DNA of 64,000 nucleotides from Natronorubrum texcoconense (GTDB lineage: Archaea > Halobacteriota > Halobacteria > Halobacteriales > Natrialbaceae): the NCBI RefSeq assembly GCF_900100335.1, contig NZ_FNFE01000002.1, forward strand, positions 496,001 to 560,000, read 5' to 3'. The notes under the pieces were generated by a model. It searched no databases. It worked only from the letters and a program-made list of their open reading frames with translations, and was not told where the DNA came from. Each line of letters begins with the position of its first letter. Within the stretch, counting starts at the first letter, position 1. The position numbers and the translations under genes were made by a program. Shown here piece by piece: positions 2,916 to 15,184 of this stretch.

Positions 2916-4844
2916 ATGGTCAGGAATACCAAACAATCACGGTCAGAGATTAAGCGACGGCGAGTTCTCCAAGGGATTGGTGCAGCAGGTGCAATCAGTA
3001 TTGCTGGATGTCTCGGCGACAGCGACGGTGATGCGCCGTTCGACATTCAACTCGAGGTAAACTCCGACAACGACGACCGCGTGCAGATGGTCGAACTGAT
3101 CGCCTCGTCGCTCGAAGAATCCGGCTATTTCAATACCGAAATCGAGGATTACGAGTGGAACGACTACGTGGCTCGGGTCATGGATCCCGCGTACGCAGAG
3201 GACGGCTTCGTGCCGTGTATCGGTCTCTCCGGAACGTTCAACCCGGAGAGTTTCTGTCAGGCCCTCCATCACAGCGAGAACCACGGCCAGTGTTGTAACC
3301 TCAACGGGATCAACGACTCCGAACTCGACGACATGCTGGACGACGCCCGATACGGTGTCGACGTCGTCGAAGACCCCGACCTCCGCCGCGAACGGTACGA
3401 CGAGATCTGGGAGTACCTCGCCGAGGAGCGATACAGCTCCATCACGCACTTCGACCTCGACGCGGCCGTCATGAACACCGATGTTCACGGGTTCAGCATG
3501 TTCCCGTTCAGCGAGAGCATCTTCAGCTACGGGCTGTTCTCCCCACAGGACGAGCAGGTCATGTGGATGGACGAGGACGCCCACCCGGACGACACCGACC
3601 TGTCGGACCTTCAGGAAGGCGGCACGCTCCGCATCGGTGCCGCGGAGAATCCCGACTCGTTCGACCCGCCGTACAGCACGGACACTACCTCGACGATGGC
3701 GCAGGTCTTCGGCTTCGAGCAATTGCTCACGAGCGACCGTGACGGCAACCTCTACCCGTGGCTCGCCGAGAGCTACGAACTCGTCGAGACCCAGGATATC
3801 GACCGGCTCGCCTACGAGGATTACATGGATGAAGTCGATGTCGACGAGGACGGCCTGCCTGACACCGACGAGCAGATAATCATCCAACACCCCGAAGACG
3901 ATCCGGCGGACGGTTCAGTCCGCGTGCTGACACCCGCCGAGGCCGCAGACGCCGTCGACGACGGCGTTTTCGGCATGCAGTTCCGCTACGAAATCCGCGA
4001 GGGCGTCGAGTTCCACAACGGCGAGGAGCTGACGGCCGAACACGTCGTCGCGACCGTCGAGCGCTACGAGAACTCGGACCTCTCCGCACAGACGTTCGAC
4101 TCGCTGCTCCACGCACGGGAGGTCGACGAGTACACCGTCGACCTGTACGCACAGGTCCCCGACGCGGAGGCAGAACGCGAACTGCCGGGTCTGTACATCC
4201 ACTCGCTGGAACAGGCCGATCTCGAGGGTAACGACCTCGATCCACGCGAGGGCAACGATCCGATCGGTACCGGCCCGTACGTCTTCGAGGAGATATCCGA
4301 CGAGCAGTACGTCGAATACTCCCGCAACGAGAACTACTGGGTCACCGAGCTGGGCGTCGAGCAGATCGACTGGTTCGACGGACCGTCCGAGTTCCCGGAC
4401 GGCCCCGTGATCGACGAGATCGAAGTGGAGATCGTTCCGGACAACTCCACCCGGTCCGCCGCTCTCCAGAGCGACGAGATCGACATCACCTACGGGCTGA
4501 CGACCGACGACCTGGACGGCTACGACGAGTCGAACGACTACGTCGTCAGGTCCATCGAGGCGGGTGGCTACGAGTACATCCAGTACCCTGCGAACGTCGA
4601 ACCGTGGGACGACGACCGACTCCGACGCGCTGTCAACCTCCTCGTTCCGCGAGAATCGATCGTCGAGAACGTCCTCAACGGCTGGGCACGGCCAGCGTGG
4701 ACGGACATTCCCGAACTCGCCGAAGAGAACGGAACCGTAGACGCCGCCGCCCTCGAGGACAGAATTCGACCGTACAACGAGTACGACCCCGAACGCGCCG
4801 AAGAGCTGCTCGAGGAAGTTATCGAAGACCACGATCTCGACTAG
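2916..4844 (+). CDS. dppA: circularly permuted SBP_bac_5 (DppA/OppA-type) peptide-binding lipoprotein
   Basis: A 642-residue extracellular binding protein for the adjacent importer. Residues 1-32 form a Tat lipoprotein signal (KRRRVLQGIGAAG, then a lipobox ending in Cys32). Residues about 42-220 (FDIQLEVNSDNDDRVQMVEL to QVMWMDE) look like the C-terminal half of this family, the part that normally ends the protein. Residues about 232-642 then begin like a normal mature N-terminus (EGGTLRIGAAENPDSFDPPYS) and finish at NEYDPERAEELLEEV, a motif normally found just before the C-terminal half. The two halves are therefore in swapped order behind one signal peptide. No stop or frameshift interrupts the gene. 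Family assignment is firm; the permutation is read from motif order alone. Confidence 0.85.
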   Translation: MVRNTKQSRSEIKRRRVLQGIGAAGAISIAGCLGDSDGDAPFDIQLEVNSDNDDRVQMVELIASSLEESGYFNTEIEDYEWNDYVARVMDPAYAEDGFVPCIGLSGTFNPESFCQALHHSENHGQCCNLNGINDSELDDMLDDARYGVDVVEDPDLRRERYDEIWEYLAEERYSSITHFDLDAAVMNTDVHGFSMFPFSESIFSYGLFSPQDEQVMWMDEDAHPDDTDLSDLQEGGTLRIGAAENPDSFDPPYSTDTTSTMAQVFGFEQLLTSDRDGNLYPWLAESYELVETQDIDRLAYEDYMDEVDVDEDGLPDTDEQIIIQHPEDDPADGSVRVLTPAEAADAVDDGVFGMQFRYEIREGVEFHNGEELTAEHVVATVERYENSDLSAQTFDSLLHAREVDEYTVDLYAQVPDAEAERELPGLYIHSLEQADLEGNDLDPREGNDPIGTGPYVFEEISDEQYVEYSRNENYWVTELGVEQIDWFDGPSEFPDGPVIDEIEVEIVPDNSTRSAALQSDEIDITYGLTTDDLDGYDESNDYVVRSIEAGGYEYIQYPANVEPWDDDRLRRAVNLLVPRESIVENVLNGWARPAWTDIPELAEENGTVDAAALEDRIRPYNEYDPERAEELLEEVIEDHDLD

Positions 4845-4936: not shown

Positions 4937-5893
4937 ATGAGCTTACGACGTTTCATACTGAAGCGGATACTATCGATCATCCCGATCCTGTTCGGTGTCT
5001 CGCTGATCACGTTTGCACTGGTTCATCTCACACCTGGTGATCCGATCGACCAGATGGTTGGGGTAAACCCGCACGTGACGGCGAGCGACGAGGCACAGCT
5101 CCGGGATCGCTACGGGCTGAACCGACCACTGTGGGAGCAGTACGGGGTCTGGATGGGCAACGTACTAACGGGGGATTTCGGTCAGGTTTACAGCAACGGC
5201 CGAGACGTCTCGGCCGTCATCATGATGCGCCTCCCCGAAACGATCGCACTCGGCATCTTCGGCTGGGTCTTCGGTCTCGCAATCGCGATTCCGACCGGGA
5301 TTTACGCAGCCGTCAAGAAGGGCCAGCTCGCCGACGACGCGAGTCGATTCATCGCCCTTTCGGGGATCTCGATCCCGAACTTCTGGCTCGGCCTGATGCT
5401 GATTCTGATCGGCGCGGTCACGCTCAGCCTCTGGCCCGTGCTTCCGCCCTCCCGACAGCCGCTGTATCACCCCTACATGTTGTGGTATCTGGTGTTACCA
5501 GGGATCACGATCGGGACGGCAGCGGCGGCCAGCATCATGCGCGTCATGCGCACCTCCATGGCCGAAGAACTGAACAAAGAGTACGTGACTGCCGCTCGAG
5601 CGAAGGGCCTTCCCGAGCAGACGGTGATCCTCAAGCACGTCCTTCGTAACTCCCTCATCTCGGTGGTGACGCTCGCGGCCACCCTGACCGCGAGTATCGT
5701 CGCCGGATCGGTCGTCGTCGAGGTCGTGTTCAACTGGCCGGGACTCGGGAGAGAGCTAATCAACGCGATCAACGGGAGAGAGATCAACCTCATCATGGCG
5801 ATCACGCTCTTTACGGGCGTCTTCATCATTATCGCCAACCTGATCGCCGACATCCTGTACGCGGTACTCGATCCGAGGATCAGATATGACTAA
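4937..5893 (+). CDS. dppB: peptide ABC transporter permease, DppB type
   Basis: One of two transmembrane subunits of the importer. The 318-residue protein begins with a typical DppB N-terminus (first helix ILSIIPILFGVSLITFALVHLTPGDP) and has about six membrane helices. The EAA loop that contacts the ATPase is visible as EYVTAARAKGLPEQTVILKH. It lies 92 bases after dppA and overlaps dppC by 8 bases, so the genes are co-transcribed and translationally coupled. Confidence 0.93.
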   Translation: MSLRRFILKRILSIIPILFGVSLITFALVHLTPGDPIDQMVGVNPHVTASDEAQLRDRYGLNRPLWEQYGVWMGNVLTGDFGQVYSNGRDVSAVIMMRLPETIALGIFGWVFGLAIAIPTGIYAAVKKGQLADDASRFIALSGISIPNFWLGLMLILIGAVTLSLWPVLPPSRQPLYHPYMLWYLVLPGITIGTAAAASIMRVMRTSMAEELNKEYVTAARAKGLPEQTVILKHVLRNSLISVVTLAATLTASIVAGSVVVEVVFNWPGLGRELINAINGREINLIMAITLFTGVFIIIANLIADILYAVLDPRIRYD

Positions 5894-6938
5894 CGAGAGA
5901 ACAACATCTACGGAACGTGGACGAATACGGATCTCCGGATTCGATCCCGAGCGCGTAACCGAACGAGAGCCGCTGTCGGGCTGGACCGAAGAGACCGGTG
6001 GCGAGACGCAGAGCCGATGGAAACGGGCGTTCACCCGATTCAAGCGGAACCGAACGGCACTGATCGGCCTCTCCGTCGTCGGCCTACTGACGCTGCTGAC
6101 AGTGTTCGCTCGTCCGATCGTGATCATGGGCGTCACGGTGCAGCCGTTCGGGCTCGCGCCGCACGATCCCGGAACGATCCTGTACATGCAGGATCCGTCG
6201 ATCAGTACCTGGGATGCGCCGTCGTGGGCCCATCCGATGGGTGTCGACGGCAACGGCCGTGATATGTTCTCCCGCGTGCTCTACGGCGGCCGATACAGCA
6301 TTTCGATCGGCTTCGTCGTGGTCGCACTAACCGCGAGCTTCGGACTCATCTACGGTGCCATCTCGGGCTACTACGGCGGCTGGACCGACGAGATCATGAT
6401 GCGGGTCGTCGACACGATCTACGCGTTCCCCGGCCTCATCCTCGCCCTGATCGTCATCGCGACGCTCGGCCGTGGATACTGGCAGCTCGTGCTCGCGTTC
6501 TCGCTGTTCGGCTGGGTTACCTACGGCCGTCTCATTCGCGGCGAGGTGCTGAAGATCAAAGAAAACGAGTACGTACTGGCGGCGAAAGCTCTCGGAGCGC
6601 GAGATCGTTCGATCATCTTCAGACACATCGCCCCGAACGCGATGCCGCCGCTGATCGTCCTCGCATCGCTCAACATCGGCACCGTCGTCATCGGTGTCGC
6701 CGCGCTCGGGTTCCTCGGACTCGGTATGCCGCCCGGCTCCGCCGAGTGGGGGACGATGCTCGATCAGACTCGCGACACACTCATCCAGCCCCCCGGCGGA
6801 TCGATCCCCTGGTGGGCTACGGTGTACCCCGGTGCAGCGATCTTCCTGTTCGTGATGGCCATGAACATGATCGGTGACGGGATCAACGACGCACTCGACG
6901 CACAGGAAACCGGAGTCGAACAGCAGGGAGGTGGATAA
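5886..6938 (+). CDS. dppC: peptide ABC transporter permease, DppC type
   Basis: Second membrane subunit, 350 residues. It has an N-terminal cytoplasmic segment with WKRAFTRFKRNRTALIGL (the OppC N-terminal signature), about six helices, and the EAA loop ENEYVLAAKALGARDRSIIFRH. The start overlaps dppB by 8 bases, and the TAA stop shares its final A with the dppD start (TAATG). GGAGGTGG at 6927-6934 is the ribosome binding site for dppD. Confidence 0.93.
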   Translation: MTNERTTSTERGRIRISGFDPERVTEREPLSGWTEETGGETQSRWKRAFTRFKRNRTALIGLSVVGLLTLLTVFARPIVIMGVTVQPFGLAPHDPGTILYMQDPSISTWDAPSWAHPMGVDGNGRDMFSRVLYGGRYSISIGFVVVALTASFGLIYGAISGYYGGWTDEIMMRVVDTIYAFPGLILALIVIATLGRGYWQLVLAFSLFGWVTYGRLIRGEVLKIKENEYVLAAKALGARDRSIIFRHIAPNAMPPLIVLASLNIGTVVIGVAALGFLGLGMPPGSAEWGTMLDQTRDTLIQPPGGSIPWWATVYPGAAIFLFVMAMNMIGDGINDALDAQETGVEQQGGG

Positions 6939-8014
6939 TGACGCTACTCGAAGTAAACGATCTCACGGTCAAGTTCTACACACAGGAGGGTGTCGTCACC
7001 GCGGTCGACGACCTCTCTTATAGCATCGAACGCGGCGAGAAGTTCGGCGTCGTCGGCGAGAGCGGGGCTGGAAAGAGCGTCACCGCACTCTCGCTGATGC
7101 GTCTGATCGATAGTCCTGGCCGGATCGAAAGCGGCGAGATCCTGTTCAAGGGCGAAAACCTCCTCGAGATGGACGAATCGGAGATGCAGCGCATCCGGGG
7201 TAACGAGGTCGCGATGGTCTTCCAGGACGCCCAGACCGCACTGAACCCGGTTTATCCCGTCGGCGAACAGATCGCCGAGGCGATCAGACACCACCTCGAC
7301 TACGACGATCAGGAGGCTCGCGAACGGACCATTCAACTGCTGGACAAAGTCGGGATCCCGGAGGCCGAAGCCCGGTACGACGACTATCCCCACGAGTTCT
7401 CCGGCGGCATGCAACAGCGCGCGATCATCGCGATGGCGCTGTCGTGCGATCCCGATCTGTTGCTCTGTGACGAGCCGACGACAGCACTCGACGTGACGAT
7501 CGAAGCCCAGATCCTGGACGAACTCAAGGCACTGGCCGACGACTTCGACACGGCGATCCAACTCATCACTCACGACCTCGGTGTCGTCGCTCAAGTCTGC
7601 GATCGCGTGATGGTCATGTACGCGGGAACGCCGGTCGAAAAAGCACCCGTCGAAGAACTCTACTACGACCCGAAACACCCCTACACCGTCGGACTGATGA
7701 GTTCGATTCCGCGGGTCGGCGACGATCGGGAGCGACTCCAGACGATTCCCGGAACGATGCCCGACCTCGTGGAGCTGCCACCCGGCTGTAGCTTCCACCC
7801 GCGCTGTCCGTACGCTGAAGAGTGTTGCGCCCGAAAGGAGCCGGCGTTACTCGATCCGGAGACCGGAGTCGCCGCGACCAGCGACACGGAACACGCGGCT
7901 GCGTGTCTCGAGTACACCGGCGATCTCACTGGCGGTCTCGACTACGAGGTCACGGTCGACGACGCCGCGACCGAAGACGAACCGCAGTACGCGGGGCGTG
8001 ATCACAATGTCTAG
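6938..8014 (+). CDS. dppD: peptide ABC transporter ATPase, DppD type
   Basis: First ATPase of the importer, 358 residues. Walker A is GESGAGKS, the Q-loop [10 protein letters not shown], the ABC signature EFSGGMQQR and Walker [13 protein letters not shown]. The C-terminal OppD/F extension keeps the uninterrupted cysteine pattern [15 protein letters not shown] with a later Cys (HAAACLEY), probably a metal-binding knuckle. It differs from the neighbouring DppF ATPases, where this extension is split. The gene overlaps dppF. Confidence 0.94.
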
Positions 8015-9674
8015 ACGAGACGAGCCGATTCTGCGAACGGAAGGGCTGACGAAGTACTACGACACGAGCAGCGGCTTCATCGACAGTCTGCTCGGTCACG
8101 GCCAGCAGGTGAAGGCGGTCGACGGTATCGACCTCGAACTGCGCGAGGGCGAGACCCTTGGCGTCGTCGGCGAGAGCGGCTGCGGGAAAACTACGCTCGG
8201 CCGAACCCTACTGCAACTGATCGAACCGACCGACGGATCGGTCTACTACCGAGGACGAGCCGACGCGGACGACGACGAAGTCGACCTGACCGAGTGTTCG
8301 AGTTCGGAACTTCGCGACCTTCGCACCGACCTCCAGTACATCTTCCAGGATCCGTTCTCGAGTCTCAACCCGCGACTAACCGTCGGTGACATCATCCGCG
8401 AACCCCTCGACATCCACAACTTACCACAATCGAACGACGATGTCGAAACGCAAGCGGACGTTCGAGCTGTCGACGTCCCGGCTGGTGACGTCTCGGTGAC
8501 GGTCGCAGACGATGTCGACACCGTCGTCGAGCCGACGAACGGCGTCGCAACCGTCACCGTCGAGGTTCGGCGAGGCGGGGATGCCTTCGAAGGGCCCGAA
8601 CCGGGAACCGACACTGCAGGGGACGTCGTCGTCGAAGTCATGGAGGAAGGGCTCGAGGTGTCGGCCGAGCAGACGGAGGAGGGCATCATAGCTGACGTTT
8701 CCGTCGGGCTGTCGACGAGCGAACTCCGTCAGGAGCGCATCTACGAACTCCTCGAAATCGTCGGCCTGAACCCGAGCCACACCCACCGATACCCACACGA
8801 GTTCTCCGGCGGCCAGCGCCAGCGAATCGGTATCGCACGTGCGCTCGCGGTCGATCCGGAAATCATCGTCTGCGACGAACCGGTCAGCGCACTCGACGTG
8901 TCGGTCCAGGCCCAGATTCTCAATCTGCTCGAGGACTTACAAGAGGAGTTCGGCCTGTCGTACATCTTCATCGCTCACGATTTGAGCGTCGTCGAACACA
9001 TCTCCGACCGAATCGCCGTCATGTATCTCGGCGAGTTCGCCGAGGTCGGCACCACCGAAGAGGTGTTCTCGCCGCCCCATCATCCGTACACGGAGGCGCT
9101 GCTCTCGGCGATTCCCGAACCGGATCCGCTCTGGGAGGGCGACCAGATCTTCCTCTCGGGGACGGTTCCCTCGCCGATCGATCCGCCGTCGGGCTGTCGA
9201 TTCCACACGCGGTGTCCCCGCGTCATCCAGCCGACGGAGTACAATCTCGAGCAGTCGGTCTGGCGATCGATCATGGATCTGAAACTGCGGGTCAGAGATG
9301 CCGAGTCGATCAACTCGATCGTCGTCCTCGAGAACGACGGCGGAACCGACGACGACGAACCGGTTGCGGTGACCGACGTGACTCGAGACGAGTTCGGGGC
9401 CCAGCTCAGAGCGGAGTTCGATCTGCCGCGGCCGATCGCGGATCCCGACGCCGAACAAACCATCTCGGCGGTAATCGACGAGCTCGTGGCCGAGAATCTT
9501 GAGGACGCCCGAGGGCGCCTCGAGGATGCGTTCACCTCACCCTGTGAGGTCCACGACCCAGAACAGGTCCCGACCGGGAAGACCCACCGAATCTCGTGTC
9601 TGCTCTACGACGAGCGATACGACAACGAACGGCCGAGATCCGGTGGCCCGAGCGATGCCGTCGCCGACGACTGA
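8007..9674 (+). CDS. dppF: peptide ABC transporter ATPase, DppF type, with two large insertions
   Basis: Second ATPase of the importer, 555 residues against roughly 320-350 for typical OppF. Walker A is GESGCGKTT, the signature EFSGGQRQR and Walker [12 protein letters not shown]. Between the Q-loop ([10 protein letters not shown]) and the signature there is an acidic, Val/Thr-rich insertion of about 95 residues (about 145-240) with alternating hydrophobic residues suggesting beta strands. A second insertion of about 110 residues splits the C-terminal cysteine motif, between GCRFHTRCP and SPCEVHDPE...ISC. The ATG at 8007 is chosen, overlapping dppD by 8 bases; an in-frame GTG at 7998 adds three residues. 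ATP-hydrolysis motifs are intact. Confidence 0.9.
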
Positions 9675-9735: not shown

Positions 9736-10284
9736 ATGCGCCGGATCTACGAGTCTGGAGCCATTCGCCGCGACGAAGGTCCCTTCAGTCCCTCCGAAAA
9801 AGACACCGAACGCCGTATCGAAGCGATGCGGTCGATAAATTCGACCAAACTGAGTCGACTCATCTTGCCGAACGGGCTGAGTCGTCGCGCGATCTCGATC
9901 GACGTCTCGACGCCTCGAGACGAGTATCCGCTCGACGCCGCGATCCCGTTTCGGGTGACGATGCGAAACTCGATGCCGTTTCCGATCACGATTCCGACGC
10001 GGTCGCCGCTGCTGTGGACGTGGGACGTCGACGGCGTGACGGATGCGTCACACGTCCCCCTCCACGATCCGCCGGACGAACCCGACTCGCTAGTGTTCGA
10101 TCGCGGCGAGCGAAAGCAGTTCACGAAACAGTGGCAGCAACTGTTTCGCGTCTCCGACAGCGAGTGGGAGCCCGCCGAACCCGGCGAGTACACGATCGGT
10201 GCCGAACTCAACGTCGAGAACGCAGTCGAGAAGGGGCTTCGCGGCGAGACGACGGTTCGTCTCGATCCGGACACGGAAGCGTAA
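9736..10284 (+). CDS. conserved haloarchaeal protein, BsuPI-like fold suspected
   Basis: A 182-residue protein of unknown function. The N-terminus (MRRIYESGAIRRD) and basic helix are followed by a beta-rich core: ISIDVSTPRDEYPLDAAIPFRVTMRNSMPFPITIPT, then TWDVDGV, LVFDRGERKQFTKQW and EPGEYTIGAELNV. That order resembles the BsuPI/Ig-like beta sandwich of intracellular proteinase inhibitors; this is a fold guess only. No signal peptide or membrane segment is visible. A TTTTAG box 24-30 bases before the ATG suggests a leaderless message. It sits between two peptide transporters but shows no link to them. Confidence 0.65.
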   Translation: MRRIYESGAIRRDEGPFSPSEKDTERRIEAMRSINSTKLSRLILPNGLSRRAISIDVSTPRDEYPLDAAIPFRVTMRNSMPFPITIPTRSPLLWTWDVDGVTDASHVPLHDPPDEPDSLVFDRGERKQFTKQWQQLFRVSDSEWEPAEPGEYTIGAELNVENAVEKGLRGETTVRLDPDTEA

Positions 10285-10316: not shown

Positions 10317-11651
10317 CTATCGTTCCCAGGATCGAGGCTCGGCTTCGACCGTCGAATCGTACCGGTGACAGCACACCGAGTGGGCCGCTTCGTGTTCCGT
10401 AGCTGTCGGTACCCGTTGCTCACAGACGGTCGGAACCGTCTCGCTGAGACGATCGCGAGCGGTCTGCAGATCCCCCGCGATCACCGCCGAAATGGCTTGG
10501 TCGACGCCCGCATCGACGGCGTCGTCCTGCAGCGTCGCCGGGAGATCGAACCGGTCTCGAACCGTCGCGTCGTCGAGTTTGCCGTCGGCCGTTTCGACGG
10601 CGATCGACTCGGGCAGCTCGCCAGCCTGAAGGGTGAAGCGAAACGCGACGACCGCCCGCCACTGCTCCCAGGGGAGTTCCACGTCCTCCGGCGGAACGAT
10701 CTCCGAACAGCGCGTGTGAAACCGACAGCCCGACGGCGGGTCGGCGGGATCAGGAACGGTGTCGGTCAGCGGCCGTTCGAACTGCTGGTCCGTCGGGTCG
10801 AGACTCGGGACGGAACCGAGCAGGAGGCGCGTGTAGGGATGTGCGGGGAACTCGAGGACGTTCTCGATCGGTCCCAGTTCGACGACCTCGCCGAGATACA
10901 TCACGGCGACGCGGTCACAGAACCGGCGGACGACGTCGATATCGTGGCTGATGAACAGAATCGAGATGTTGAACTCCCGCCGGACATCGTCGAGCAGCGC
11001 GAGGACGTCAGACTGGACTCGGCCGTCGAGTGCGCTCGTCGGCTCGTCTGCGACGATCAGATCCGGGTTGAGGACGAGCGCCCGCGCGATCGAGAGCCGC
11101 TGTTTTTCGCCACCGGAGAACTCGTGGGGATAGCGATCCGCGTCCGCCGCCGACAGCCCGACCCGCTCGAGGAGATCCTCGACGATCGCTCGGCGACGGT
11201 CCGCATCCTCCATCCCGTGGAGTACGAGCGGCTCGGCGACCGCCTCGCCCATCGTCAGTCGCGGGTTGAACGCCTCGTTCGGGTCCTGGACGACGAGCTG
11301 GGCTCGACGGCGGAAAGCGCGGAGCGCCGCGCCCGAGAGCTCGTTTACTGACTGCCCGTCGAACCGGACTTCGCCACCGGTCGGCTCCTCGAGCCCGAGA
11401 ACGGAGTGGGCAGCCGTGGTCTTGCCGCTGCCCGATTCGCCGACGAGGCCGAACGTTTCACCTCGTTCGATATCGAAACTCACACCGTCGACCGCCCGGA
11501 CGCGACCGACCTCTCGTCTGAGCAGCCCCTTCGTGATCGGGTAGTGGACGTCGAGGTCTTCGACCTCGAGCAACGGCGAGGCGGCCGATTCCGGATCCGT
11601 TCCGCGCTCGCGGTTCGCTTCCTCGTCGGAGCCGGCCTCCGGTCCGATCAT
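10317..11651 (-). CDS. dppF: peptide ABC transporter ATPase, DppF type (second cassette)
   Basis: 444-residue ATPase of a second importer. Walker A is GESGSGKTT, the Q-loop VQDPNEAFNP, the signature EFSGGEKQR and Walker B LIVADEPTSALD. It has no insertion after the Q-loop, unlike the DppF at 8007-9674. It shares the insertion of about 100 residues between the two halves of the C-terminal cysteine motif ([10 protein letters not shown] ... VCEQRVP ... SVCCH). The ATG at 11651 overlaps the stop of dppD by 4 bases (ATGA), which settles the start over longer in-frame possibilities. Confidence 0.92.
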   Translation of the reverse strand: MIGPEAGSDEEANRERGTDPESAASPLLEVEDLDVHYPITKGLLRREVGRVRAVDGVSFDIERGETFGLVGESGSGKTTAAHSVLGLEEPTGGEVRFDGQSVNELSGAALRAFRRRAQLVVQDPNEAFNPRLTMGEAVAEPLVLHGMEDADRRRAIVEDLLERVGLSAADADRYPHEFSGGEKQRLSIARALVLNPDLIVADEPTSALDGRVQSDVLALLDDVRREFNISILFISHDIDVVRRFCDRVAVMYLGEVVELGPIENVLEFPAHPYTRLLLGSVPSLDPTDQQFERPLTDTVPDPADPPSGCRFHTRCSEIVPPEDVELPWEQWRAVVAFRFTLQAGELPESIAVETADGKLDDATVRDRFDLPATLQDDAVDAGVDQAISAVIAGDLQTARDRLSETVPTVCEQRVPTATEHEAAHSVCCHRYDSTVEAEPRSWER

Positions 11652-12715
11652 TGTTGTCCCCCCGATATCGGCCGCATCTCCCGCCAGTCGTCCAGAATCG
11701 GTTCCGGATCGCCCTCTGGCCCGAAGTGAACGCACGAGACGGCGTGGTGTTCTCGATCCGCGACGGCGGCGAACGTCGGCTGGTCGGGACCAGCACAGAC
11801 GTCGACGGCGTGTGGACACTCGGCTCTGAATCGGCAGCCGTCGGTCGGAATCTCCCCTCGAGCCGAGCGGTCCGCCCGTCGTGAGAGCCCGTCGTAGCTA
11901 TCGAGCAGCGCCTGCGTGTAGGGGTGAGACGGCTGAGTGAGGAGTTGTTCGGTCGTGGCACGTTCGACGATCGTGCCGCCGAACATCACCAGTACCCGAT
12001 CGGCGAGCGCGGCGACGACACGCAGGTCGTGCGTGATACAGAGGATCGACATGCCGCCGTCGGTCAGCCCCTGGAGCAGTTCGATCAACCGCGCCTGAAC
12101 GGTGACGTCGACGGCCGTCGTCGGTTCGTCGGCGATCAACAGGTCGGGGTCGGCCGCCAGTGCGATCGCGATCGCGATCCGCTGGCGCTGGCCGCCGGAG
12201 AACTCGTGGGGATAGTCGTCGATCCGTGCGGACGCTCGCGGGATGCCGACCGCACGGAACCGCTCGATCGCGCGCTCGCGGGCGGCCGCGGGAGAAATCT
12301 CTTCGTGGATCGTAATCGCTTCGACGAACTGGTCGCCGACCGTACAGACGGGATCAAGTGCGCTCTGTGGGTTCTGAAAGACGTGTGCGATGCGACTGCC
12401 GCGAATCGTACGGAGCTCCGACTCGGTCGCCTCGAGGAGCCGGCGACCGTCGAACTCGACCGTGCCGTCGACGATTTCGGCCGGCGGTTGCGGGACGATT
12501 CCGGTCAGCGATTCGCACGTGACGCTCTTTCCGCTGCCGGATTCACCGACGAGACACACCGTCTCGCCGCGGTCGACGGTAAAATTCACGCCGTCGACGG
12601 CGTAGATGGTCTCACGTTCGGTTCGAATACGCGTTCGGAGGTTCTCGACGGTCAAAAGCGGCGTCGCTTCGGACCGATCGTCTGCCGTCGTCGTGGAGTC
12701 GTGTTCTGTCGTCAT
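11648..12715 (-). CDS. dppD: peptide ABC transporter ATPase, DppD type (second cassette)
   Basis: 355-residue ATPase. Walker A is [11 protein letters not shown], the Q-loop [10 protein letters not shown], the signature EFSGGQRQR and Walker [13 protein letters not shown]. The C-terminal [15 protein letters not shown] and AVSCVHF carry the usual uninterrupted cysteine pattern. It starts 9 bases after dppC and overlaps dppF, so dppC-dppD-dppF form one operon. Confidence 0.93.
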
Positions 12716-12724
12716 CGATTGTGT

Positions 12725-13918
12725 TCAGTGGTTGCGGCGCGGGTCGAGCGCATCTCGGAGCCCGTCACCGACGAGTTTGAGCGAGACGAGCGTCAGCGTG
12801 AGTGCGATCGCGGGGAACGTCGAGACCCACCAGACTTCGTGGGGTTCCACCACGAGACCGACGCCGGTCATCGATGGGTCGAGACCTTCTTGAATCGTCG
12901 ACCCCCACGAGTAGAGCTCGAGGTGGTGAAAGCCGAGGAAGGCGACGCCGGCTTCGACGAGGACCAGCAGCGCGAGGAGGTGGAAGATCGCGGGGACGAG
13001 CGTATTCGTAATGTTCGGAACGATGTGGCGTTTCGCGACGTAAAACGGTGAGGCGCCGAGGCTTCGAGCGACGAGTACGTGCCCGTCTTCCCGTCGCTGG
13101 AGCGTCTCGCTTCTGACCAGGCGGGCGATACCACCCCAGCTGAGCAGCCCGAACATAACTAGCAACAACAGCAACGAGACGTTCCAGTACATGTAGCCGA
13201 TGAAAAAGACCACGATCGCGGGAATACAGAGCTGTACGTCGACGTAACTCATCAACAGATCGTCGATGCGCCCGCCTCGGAACCCGGCAACGATTCCGAC
13301 GGCTGCAGCGAGCGGGACGACGAACGCCGCGGTAAAGACGAGCACGTACAACGTCGTGCGTGCGCCTTCGACGACGAGGTGGCCCATCGGGTGCCCGCGA
13401 TGGTTCGTTCCGAGCGGGTACGTCATCGTTCCGTCACAGTAGCGAGTGATTCCCTCGCCGTCGGTCACCTCGCCGAGACACTCGGCGCTCCACGACGCCT
13501 CTCCGGTAAATCCGTACGGTGCGTGAAACCGGTGTTGAAACATGAGATCCGGAGACCCGAAGACGGCCGGCCCGACAACTGCGACGAGTGAGAGAACGCC
13601 GAGAAAGACGGCCCCAGCAGCGTGGATCGGTCGAGAGACGAGACGACCCAGCACACGTCGGGTCAGCTCACGCCGTCGGACGGCGGGAACGATCACACCC
13701 GAAGTCAGCACGACGGTGCCGAGCAAGATCACCCAGTCGATACGCTCGAAGTAGACGCCGAGCAAAACCGTATCGACCCGCTGGAGAACGTAGAGACCGA
13801 CGAGAAGCACTACTCCCGCGAAGAACACCGCTCTGGCCGGCGTGACGAACCGCCTCGAGTGACCGACTTCGTTCCAGTCGACCTGTTCGAAGCGGTGGGG
13901 ATCGGGAGATGTTCCCAT
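12725..13918 (-). CDS. dppC: peptide ABC transporter permease, DppC type (second cassette)
   Basis: 397-residue permease, longer than usual. Two extra hydrophobic segments precede the OppC core (FFAGVVLLVGLYVL and WVILLGTVVLTSGVIVPAV, about residues 30-80). The EAA loop is GHVLVARSLGASPFYVAKRH. An extracellular loop after the first core helix contains two Cys residues (SAECLGEV and TRYCDG), possibly a disulfide. The gene heads a minus-strand operon and faces away from dppB at 14201. Confidence 0.9.
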   Translation of the reverse strand: MGTSPDPHRFEQVDWNEVGHSRRFVTPARAVFFAGVVLLVGLYVLQRVDTVLLGVYFERIDWVILLGTVVLTSGVIVPAVRRRELTRRVLGRLVSRPIHAAGAVFLGVLSLVAVVGPAVFGSPDLMFQHRFHAPYGFTGEASWSAECLGEVTDGEGITRYCDGTMTYPLGTNHRGHPMGHLVVEGARTTLYVLVFTAAFVVPLAAAVGIVAGFRGGRIDDLLMSYVDVQLCIPAIVVFFIGYMYWNVSLLLLLVMFGLLSWGGIARLVRSETLQRREDGHVLVARSLGASPFYVAKRHIVPNITNTLVPAIFHLLALLVLVEAGVAFLGFHHLELYSWGSTIQEGLDPSMTGVGLVVEPHEVWWVSTFPAIALTLTLVSLKLVGDGLRDALDPRRNH

Positions 13919-14200
13919 AGGGGACGACCGAAATATAGACTATCGTGTAATAAATCTATCCATAGTGTGAACGACCGTCGCTCACTAAATCGAAGCGATA
14001 CGTTTTTTATCTGACCGTTGGTACCGGTTGGCAATGCCCGTTACCCCCCGTTGCGGTACAGTACGCACTCGAGGCCGGACAGGGGACTATCCTCGGTTGC
14101 GATCGCGTACGACGCGGAATCAGCGTACGCGTTCCCTCCCGACATCGACGCCGCAGGTGACCGATTCGAGCGGGGAAACTGCCGCAGTGTGGTGGTCGGC
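13919..14200. promoter_or_regulatory. divergent promoter region between dppCDF and dppB of the second cassette
   Basis: 282 bases. AT-rich elements are visible at the dppC side (TGTAATAAATC near 13950) and in the centre (CGTTTTTTATC near 14001-14011). These are candidate TATA boxes; which one serves which gene is not certain. Confidence 0.45.
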
Positions 14201-15184
14201 GTGAATTTCCTTCGAATCATCGCCAAACGACTCGTGATGGGGCTCGTCGCTGCGTGGGCGGTGTTGACCACGGTGTTCGTAGTGTTTACGACGAGTCGCG
14301 ACTGGGTCGAAGAGACGATCGAAGGGGCGATGCGATACAGCGGAGCCGACGAACGGGAGATCGAACGTTCGATCGACGAGTATCTGGCGACACACGGGTT
14401 CGATCGGCCGCTCTGGCAACAGTATCTCGACTGGATGGGGAACATGCTCACGCTCGAGTGGGGAGATTCGTTCTTCATCGCCGCGGGCGAAGGCACGGAA
14501 GCGTCGTTCTACACGACCGGCGAACCGGTCTTTCCGATGGTCATGGATTCCGTCGTTCGGACCGCGATGTACGTTCTCCCCGCGATCGTGATCGCGATCG
14601 TGCTCGGGATTTGCATCGGTCTCTACGCGGCCATGAATCCCGACAGTCGGCTCGCCGAGTCGGGACTGAACACGGCGTACCTCTGCTTTGCACTGCCGAA
14701 CTTCTGGATCGGCGGAATGTTGCTCTCGTTCGCCGCGGGCGGCGTGATCCCCGACTCGGCGTTGCTGTTCGATCACGTCCTCCCCATCATACTCACCGCA
14801 ACGACGCTGCTGGGCGGCTACGTGAGCTACTCGCGTGCACACTCGCTCGAGTACGCCTCTGCGGAGTTCGTGACGCTGGTCAAGGCGAAGGGGGCGAGCA
14901 GAGTGCGGATCGCGAGACACATCGTCCGGAACTCGGCGATCCCGCTGTTCTCGATGCTGTTTACCGAAGCGTTGGCGTTGCTCGTCCTCGCGGTGTTCGT
15001 GATCGAGTCGCTGTTTCGAATCGACGGCTTCGGCGCGCTCCTGTTCAGTGCAGTCCACATGCGTGACCTGCCCGTCGTCCTCGGCTGTACGCTCGTCATC
15101 ATCGCGGTCGGGATCGTCGGAAACATCGTTCAGGATCTGGCTTACAACAGTCTCGACCCCCGTGTCGATACTGGTCGCCGATAA
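14201..15184 (+). CDS. dppB: peptide ABC transporter permease, DppB type (second cassette, divergent)
   Basis: 327-residue permease with the normal DppB layout: first helix LVAAWAVLTTVFVVFTTSRDW, then HGFDRPLWQQYLDWMGNML and the EAA loop AEFVTLVKAKGASRVRIARH. The GTG at 14201 matches the usual DppB N-terminus (NFLRIIAKRL); the open frame extends upstream to 14018, but that part has no family similarity. It is transcribed away from its dppCDF partners across a 282-base spacer. No substrate-binding protein gene is near. Confidence 0.88.
   Translation: MNFLRIIAKRLVMGLVAAWAVLTTVFVVFTTSRDWVEETIEGAMRYSGADEREIERSIDEYLATHGFDRPLWQQYLDWMGNMLTLEWGDSFFIAAGEGTEASFYTTGEPVFPMVMDSVVRTAMYVLPAIVIAIVLGICIGLYAAMNPDSRLAESGLNTAYLCFALPNFWIGGMLLSFAAGGVIPDSALLFDHVLPIILTATTLLGGYVSYSRAHSLEYASAEFVTLVKAKGASRVRIARHIVRNSAIPLFSMLFTEALALLVLAVFVIESLFRIDGFGALLFSAVHMRDLPVVLGCTLVIIAVGIVGNIVQDLAYNSLDPRVDTGRR

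Follow-up and report, generated by a model that had tools for sequence, protein, structure and literature searches.

A natural circular permutation usually comes to light as a single ancient pair of distant families, which leaves no way to follow its origin and its effects. Permuted substrate-binding proteins (SBPs) of ABC importers have been described in other clusters than the one considered here. TpMglB-2 (Tp0684) of Treponema pallidum, classified as 'Type Ic/Cluster Bc' (PMC4990184), is a natural functional permutation, a lipid-anchored SBP with unpermuted relatives, and in these respects resembles the protein reported below; it differs by its sugar-binding cluster B fold and by its other break. 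Its permuted part aligns poorly with canonical proteins (13% over 100 residues; PMC4990184), which means that the description there includes no unpermuted orthologue of near identity from the same operon. The glycine-betaine-binding proteins OpuAC and ProX (PMC2395249) likewise illustrate a circular permutation between SBPs of ABC importers, but this one was found by structure, at less than 24% identity, in another SBP cluster and without any recurrent switch within an operon. As to SBP_bac_5 proteins, we found no report of a permuted member in the open-licence literature.

The protein studied here is encoded in the window, that is the whole stretch of 64,000 nucleotides of Natronorubrum texcoconense DNA that was analysed. 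It resembles the unpermuted proteins of DppA/OppA/AppA/NikA type (PF00496, cluster C) by homology over nearly its whole length and by its place at the head of a dppBCDF operon, and its Tat/lipobox anchoring is that of other haloarchaeal SBPs. It differs from them by its reversed blocks, by termini situated in a connection of the C-lobe, by an insertion of about 60 residues and by a CCN pair. It is not a Type Ic protein like TpMglB-2, as Pfam matches it with SBP_bac_5 (cluster C) and with no cluster B family.

Block order in the window protein

The original prediction, made from the sequence alone, was that this protein has a Tat lipoprotein signal followed by the two halves of a peptide-binding protein in swapped order. 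Both claims held. The twin-arginine signal and the lipobox with Cys32 can be read directly (KRRRVLQGIGAAGAISIAGC), and the swap is supported by a profile constructed to reveal order, by phmmer and by syntenic unpermuted sisters, as described below. The first block, predicted at residues 42-220, does correspond to the C-terminal part of the family, with bounds corrected to about 39-222; the N block, predicted to start at about residue 232, starts exactly there, after a linker at 223-231; and the protein does stop, as claimed, at a point which is mid-protein in canonical SBP_bac_5 (...EELLEEVIEDHDLD). The features are collected in Table 1.

Table 1. Features of the permuted SBP gene and of its operon (window positions)
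Feature	Position	Strand	Basis or remark
Permuted SBP_bac_5 lipoprotein gene, 642 aa, ATG start	2916..4844	+	intact ORF
Tat signal peptide, lipobox Cys32 and short acidic spacer, residues 1-38	2916..3029	+	read from sequence; profile match
C block, residues 39-222, C-terminal in canonical SBP_bac_5	3030..3581	+	homology
Vicinal cysteine pair GQCCN, residues 126-127	3291..3296	+	
Linker HPDDTDLSD, residues 223-231, from original C-terminus to original N-terminus	3582..3608	+	
N block, residues 232-642, N-terminal in canonical SBP_bac_5	3609..4841	+	
Insertion of about 60 residues within N block, residues 292-350	3789..3965	+	gap between profile matches
DppB-type permease, BPD_transp_1	4937..5893	+	neighbour kept in permuted and unpermuted loci
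DppC-type permease, OppC_N and BPD_transp_1	5886..6938	+	conserved neighbour
DppD-type ATPase	6938..8014	+	conserved neighbour
DppF-type ATPase, ABC_tran and oligo_HPY	7998..9674	+	Pfam, relatives compared
Conserved hypothetical protein, 182 aa, no Pfam match, last gene of conserved cluster	9736..10284	+	

The Pfam profile SBP_bac_5 (PF00496) matches the window protein with 198.7 bits for a cut-off of 32.4, and most of this score comes from residues 353-634, which correspond to profile positions 16-275. Scanned alone, the segment near residues 42-90 gives a weak match to positions 290-336 (15.7 bits, below the cut-off). The order-test HMM was constructed in the following way: 24 unpermuted SBPs, all from outside the family of the window protein so as to avoid circularity (paralogues from its own genome, other haloarchaeal and archaeal SBPs, and bacterial ones), yielded a profile of 500 positions. 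With this profile, residues 13-38 (the signal region) correspond to positions 2-27, residues 41-197 to positions 353-499 (32.7 bits), residues 232-291 to positions 28-87 and residues 351-634 to positions 87-345 (174.7 bits). The C block alone obtained 36.5 bits, against a maximum of 2.6 bits in 500 shuffles. A phmmer comparison with AppA of B. subtilis (1xoc) gives the same picture: query residues 232-600 fall on chain residues 18-312 and query residues 17-197 on 335-506. Both the N-terminal and the C-terminal parts of SBP_bac_5 are thus present (positions 28-345 and 353-499 of the order-test HMM) while their canonical order is absent by phmmer, by comparison with orthologues and by the order test. 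Hence, we have a permuted variant of the family and not a canonical member. The NCBIfam matches are only partial and all below their cut-offs, which means that no NCBIfam model describes the permuted form, and no solved structure in permuted order was seen among the sequence matches inspected for the window protein or for L154, another permuted SBP of the same genome. Homology to unpermuted orthologues from the same operon establishes that the window protein is a circular permutation of SBP_bac_5.

The break falls in the loop between the helix ending in RAEELLEE and the next strand, PFDIQLEV. In AppA, the place of the new C-terminus and of the new mature N-terminus (DAPFDIQLEV) is the loop between AKQMLAEAGWKDTNGDGILDKDGK and KFSFTLKTNQG. 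The same break was found in 20 permuted orthologues inspected, from independent assemblies, and most of those inspected have a related xxTDLSD linker ('...TDLSDLQEGG'). In a weak AlphaFold2 model, residues 236-642 align to residues 1-345 of the 507 of DppA; as far as this model can be trusted, the new C-terminus is therefore in the middle of the DppA fold, at a place which we take to be within the C-lobe from the known lobe boundaries of this fold. The prediction that the termini lie near the lobe junction thus failed in part: the break is inside a loop of the C-lobe, and only the original termini, now joined, are in the N-lobe. The structure prediction which had been proposed as a check gave confidences (pLDDT) of only 38 (6 alignment rows) and 55 (11 rows), with shallow alignments and no confident fold, so that the docking of the C block on the N block is not shown. 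The N block of the better model compares with DppA, AppA and NikA at Z of about 17-18, but this comparison covers model residues 230-642 and excludes the C block. Viral contigs, scanned for a deeper alignment, gave only 6 unpermuted SBPs; these and misaligned C-block fragments were left out of the folding alignment. Among phages, only short matches to the N block were found.

All 43 members of the window SBP family examined, permuted and unpermuted, have the CCN pair, and none of the SBPs compared from outside this family has it; conceivably the pair touches the ligand or forms a vicinal disulfide. The insertion is extra with respect to other SBP_bac_5 proteins, and the corresponding segment is present in the unpermuted sister sequences inspected.

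Orthologues, operon and selection

The search of haloarchaeal genomes proposed with the original prediction, extended over the family, the class and neighbouring families, gave full-length proteins with the same block order in 47 genomes, and unpermuted sisters as well. By a tally of listed matches, 24 of these genomes belong to the family of the window (f1), 21 to f4 and 2 to f3. Named records in permuted order come from Natronococcus amylolyticus, Natronorubrum halalkaliphilum, Natronolimnohabitans innermongolicus and a Natrialbaceae MAG. In an unpermuted sister (genome G100, L034/L071), query residues 225-642 (63%) run directly into residues 39-221 (67%), the two blocks abutting. More generally, unpermuted orthologues of other haloarchaea show 59-72% identity in the N block and 54-67% in the C block; Halocatena salina has one of these canonical orthologues (WP_247995043.1). 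Permuted and unpermuted loci have the same neighbours, dppB, dppC, dppD and dppF and then the 182-aa protein, and the same phosphoribosyltransferase gene often lies upstream of the SBP gene in both kinds of loci, in several families. The genes beside that of the permuted SBP thus supply a pair of permeases and a pair of ATPases of Dpp/Opp type, and the claim that the gene is intact and heads a complete importer operon held. The 'proper promoter' also claimed for it rests only on an AT-rich stretch noticed by eye upstream of the ATG (ATACATATTTATG).

The selection acting on the window gene is purifying. dN/dS is 0.13 against a relative 93% identical (0.10 in the C block, 0.125 in the N block) and 0.18 against a relative 81% identical, and the linker has no nonsynonymous change with respect to two relatives. 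One could object that the gene is an assembly chimera or a pseudogene. The first is ruled out by the same order in 47 genomes, found in the family of the window gene alone and in independent assemblies, the second by the open frame and by the dN/dS of 0.13-0.18; nothing was found in support of either, and we regard both as practically eliminated. The two outcomes which had been named beforehand as refuting the permutation, namely residues 42-220 failing to align with the C-terminal part of SBP_bac_5 or an assembly error at the junction, were both examined and neither was met. As to the claim that the protein is probably functional, the gene is intact, conserved and under purifying selection, while ligand binding and transport are inferred, without data.

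Several side observations concern the operon. The window DppF has an in-frame insert of about 85 aa (window 8448-8706, residues about 151-236) between the Q-loop and the signature motif. It is missing from most relatives, even from a DppF 90% identical (L081), and something was seen at this site only in L089 and partly in L099/L100. Directly downstream, at 10317-15184, there is a second importer of Dpp/Opp type, with two ATPases and one permease on the minus strand and one permease on the plus strand, and without any SBP gene seen near it. Of 40 related loci, about 13 have a divergent cluster of this kind next to the SBP operon (for instance L072, L073, L088 and L090). This second importer might share the permuted SBP. 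In two other loci (L091 and L092, genomes G022 and G018), a set formed by a permuted SBP, dppB and dppC without dppD and dppF faces, at a distance of about 10 kb, a complete operon whose SBP is unpermuted and only distantly related; both importers could use the same ATPases, though this is only a conjecture.

Changes of order within the family and across SBP_bac_5

In the trees of the N block, of the C block and of both together, permuted orthologues do not form one clade (p-AU 0.0009, 0.0003 and 0.0001, respectively). Much of this non-monophyly comes from a single gene, the unpermuted U_L069 of genome G182, which is the sister of the permuted P_L093 of G165 in the N, C and dppBCD trees. Between these two sisters the upstream and signal DNA is 76% identical, and the G182 gene has a shortened and altered junction from N block to C block (LEGDIDFPIEV) and a low-complexity linker running straight into its N block. 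We consider it likely that this gene is a reversion to the canonical order. If the G182 gene is grouped with the permuted ones, the rejection of a single clade is only marginal (p-AU 0.03, 0.018 and 0.068). The linker and junction of the unpermuted genes of f9 and f3 are still the ancestral ones, and these genes are not necessarily revertants. In genome G503, which has the same genus code as G387 and G502 with their permuted genes, the gene is unpermuted and lies on a deeper branch.

Alternatively, the permutation may have arisen more than once within this family, instead of once with a reversion in G182. In favour of this, the permuted genes are not one clade, and the result remains marginal even with G182 included (0.018-0.068). 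Against it, the break and the related xxTDLSD linker are common to most permuted orthologues, and the junction of the G182 gene and its 76% upstream and signal identity are what one expects from a revertant. Multiple origins within the family remain possible, and recombination and transfer among haloarchaea leave the history of order within it uncertain.

The phenomenon extends beyond this family. A scan of the same genome with PF00496 found profile positions 290-366 lying 5' of positions 2-286 in other genes too: 5 of its 11 SBP_bac_5 genes, whose ORFs were read and profiled, are permuted (the window gene, L154, L156, L157 and L158). Searches with L154 recovered the same order across haloarchaeal families and, as single collinear tblastn pieces, on plasmids of Alphaproteobacteria (the bacterial sampling was of plasmids only). 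Such genes were found in Nitratireductor (WP_113156578.1), Ketogulonicigenium (WP_273692309.1), Maritalea (WP_117397031.1) and Roseomonas (WP_207415789.1), and also in Microvirga and Neorhizobium; the profile order of these alphaproteobacterial proteins was checked.

We placed the permuted proteins in wide SBP_bac_5 trees of 98 and 83 proteins. Lineage I (35 rows, support 100/98) unites haloarchaea and Alphaproteobacteria, lineage II consists of L188-L190, lineage III is the family of the window gene, and lineage IV is a single gene on a long branch (L187, G672:C2:102000-107500), from the same phylum but outside the haloarchaeal order. At least 6 changes of order are required on the wide tree, and well-supported branches force 5 of them. 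AU tests reject a single clade for I and III (lnL difference 384, p 7e-7), for I and II (121, p 2e-4) and for II and III (131). In lineages I, III and IV the break comes after the helix, the N block ending at positions 345-351 of the order-test HMM and the C block starting at 350-357; in lineage II it comes before the helix (330-332 and 340), about 15-20 residues earlier. As the lineages are separated by the AU tests while their breaks fall in one connection, circular permutation has recurred there: it arose, with little doubt, at least 3 independent times in the same helix-loop-strand connection of the C-lobe, and a fourth origin, which rests on L187 alone, is possible. The rearrangement described in one gene is thus extended to one which arose several times.

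A single ancient permutation could be imagined as the source of all permuted SBP_bac_5 proteins, the unpermuted members nested among them being reversions. In its favour, the breaks of lineages I, III and IV almost coincide on the profile, and the G182 gene, sister of P_L093, resembles a real reversion. Against it stand the three AU rejections, the earlier break of lineage II and at least 5 successive unpermuted branches between lineages II and III. We consider a single origin ruled out by the tests and by the differing break, or at best highly improbable.

Two other observations belong here. L187 has a Sec-like signal for secretion and a PGF-CTERM-like anchor at its C-terminal end; its anchor is therefore also at the C-lobe loop, reached from the other end of the chain. 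SBPs of lineage I often adjoin genes for M28 peptidases, hydantoinase/oxoprolinase or creatininase (L228, L230, L238, L239), which hints at peptide or cyclic-amide substrates.

Origin, working and meaning of the permutation

Although there are no ligand or transport data, the window protein is in all likelihood a working, naturally permuted cluster C lipoprotein of peptide/nickel type serving a DppBCDF importer. The original termini are joined by the short acidic linker, and new ones were opened in the C-lobe surface loop between the helix and the next strand. The chain is inferred, without a confident structure, to refold into the ordinary two-lobed flytrap, which would bind its ligand and deliver it to the adjacent DppBCDF as DppA does; this too is inferred, without biochemical data. 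The N-terminal lipid anchor would then be attached to a C-lobe loop instead of to the N-lobe.

The likely origin is a duplication, either in tandem or of the C block, with both ends trimmed afterwards. Duplication and trimming is a described route to circular permutation (PMC3320104), of which DNA methyltransferases and saposin/swaposin are cases. The methyltransferases differ from the window family in having documented intermediates: we found no C-N-C or N-C-N intermediates and no remnants beside the gene in 55 loci scanned. The tandem duplication and trimming already suggested by the original prediction is thus plausible but has not been caught midway. The competing route is fission and fusion, by which two different parental genes, or half-genes, would each have supplied one block and been fused with the order reversed. 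It is a recognised route (PMC3320104), and the absence of a tandem intermediate speaks for it. However, the trees of the N block and of the C block put the permuted genes among the same close relatives, and the 55 loci showed no free half-genes. We therefore hold fission and fusion to be unlikely and prefer duplication and trimming.

In the TpMglB-2 study, tethering was suggested as one reason why an SBP might be permuted (PMC4990184), and DppA touches DppB through both lobes (PMC12136057). The alphaproteobacterial members inspected have, by eye, ordinary Sec or Tat-like signals without an obvious lipobox, and hence count against tethering as a general explanation. Neutral drift through a permissive loop is a possible alternative. 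A bolder reading, which as a whole we put forward only tentatively, would be that the order of SBP_bac_5 is labile both ways, that the same C-lobe connection was opened at least three to four times (in archaea and in a lineage of archaea and bacteria) and closed at least once, and that the switch was selected for shifting the chain ends, together with the lipid or C-terminal anchor, from N-lobe to C-lobe, changing how the tethered protein reaches its permease.

A large fraction of the SBPs of haloarchaeal peptide importers (5 of 11 in this genome), and some alphaproteobacterial ones, have an order which is missed by profile-based annotation and by sequential structure aligners; every annotated named example inspected carries only the label 'ABC transporter substrate-binding protein'. 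In the present case, orthologues of both orders with 60-70% identity occupy the same operon of related haloarchaea, with a candidate reversion between sister operons. Together with the independent repeats, this allows direct tests of the genetic route, of the tolerance of the site and of any benefit of the moved termini, and amounts to a good natural experiment on the rewiring of proteins while their function is kept.
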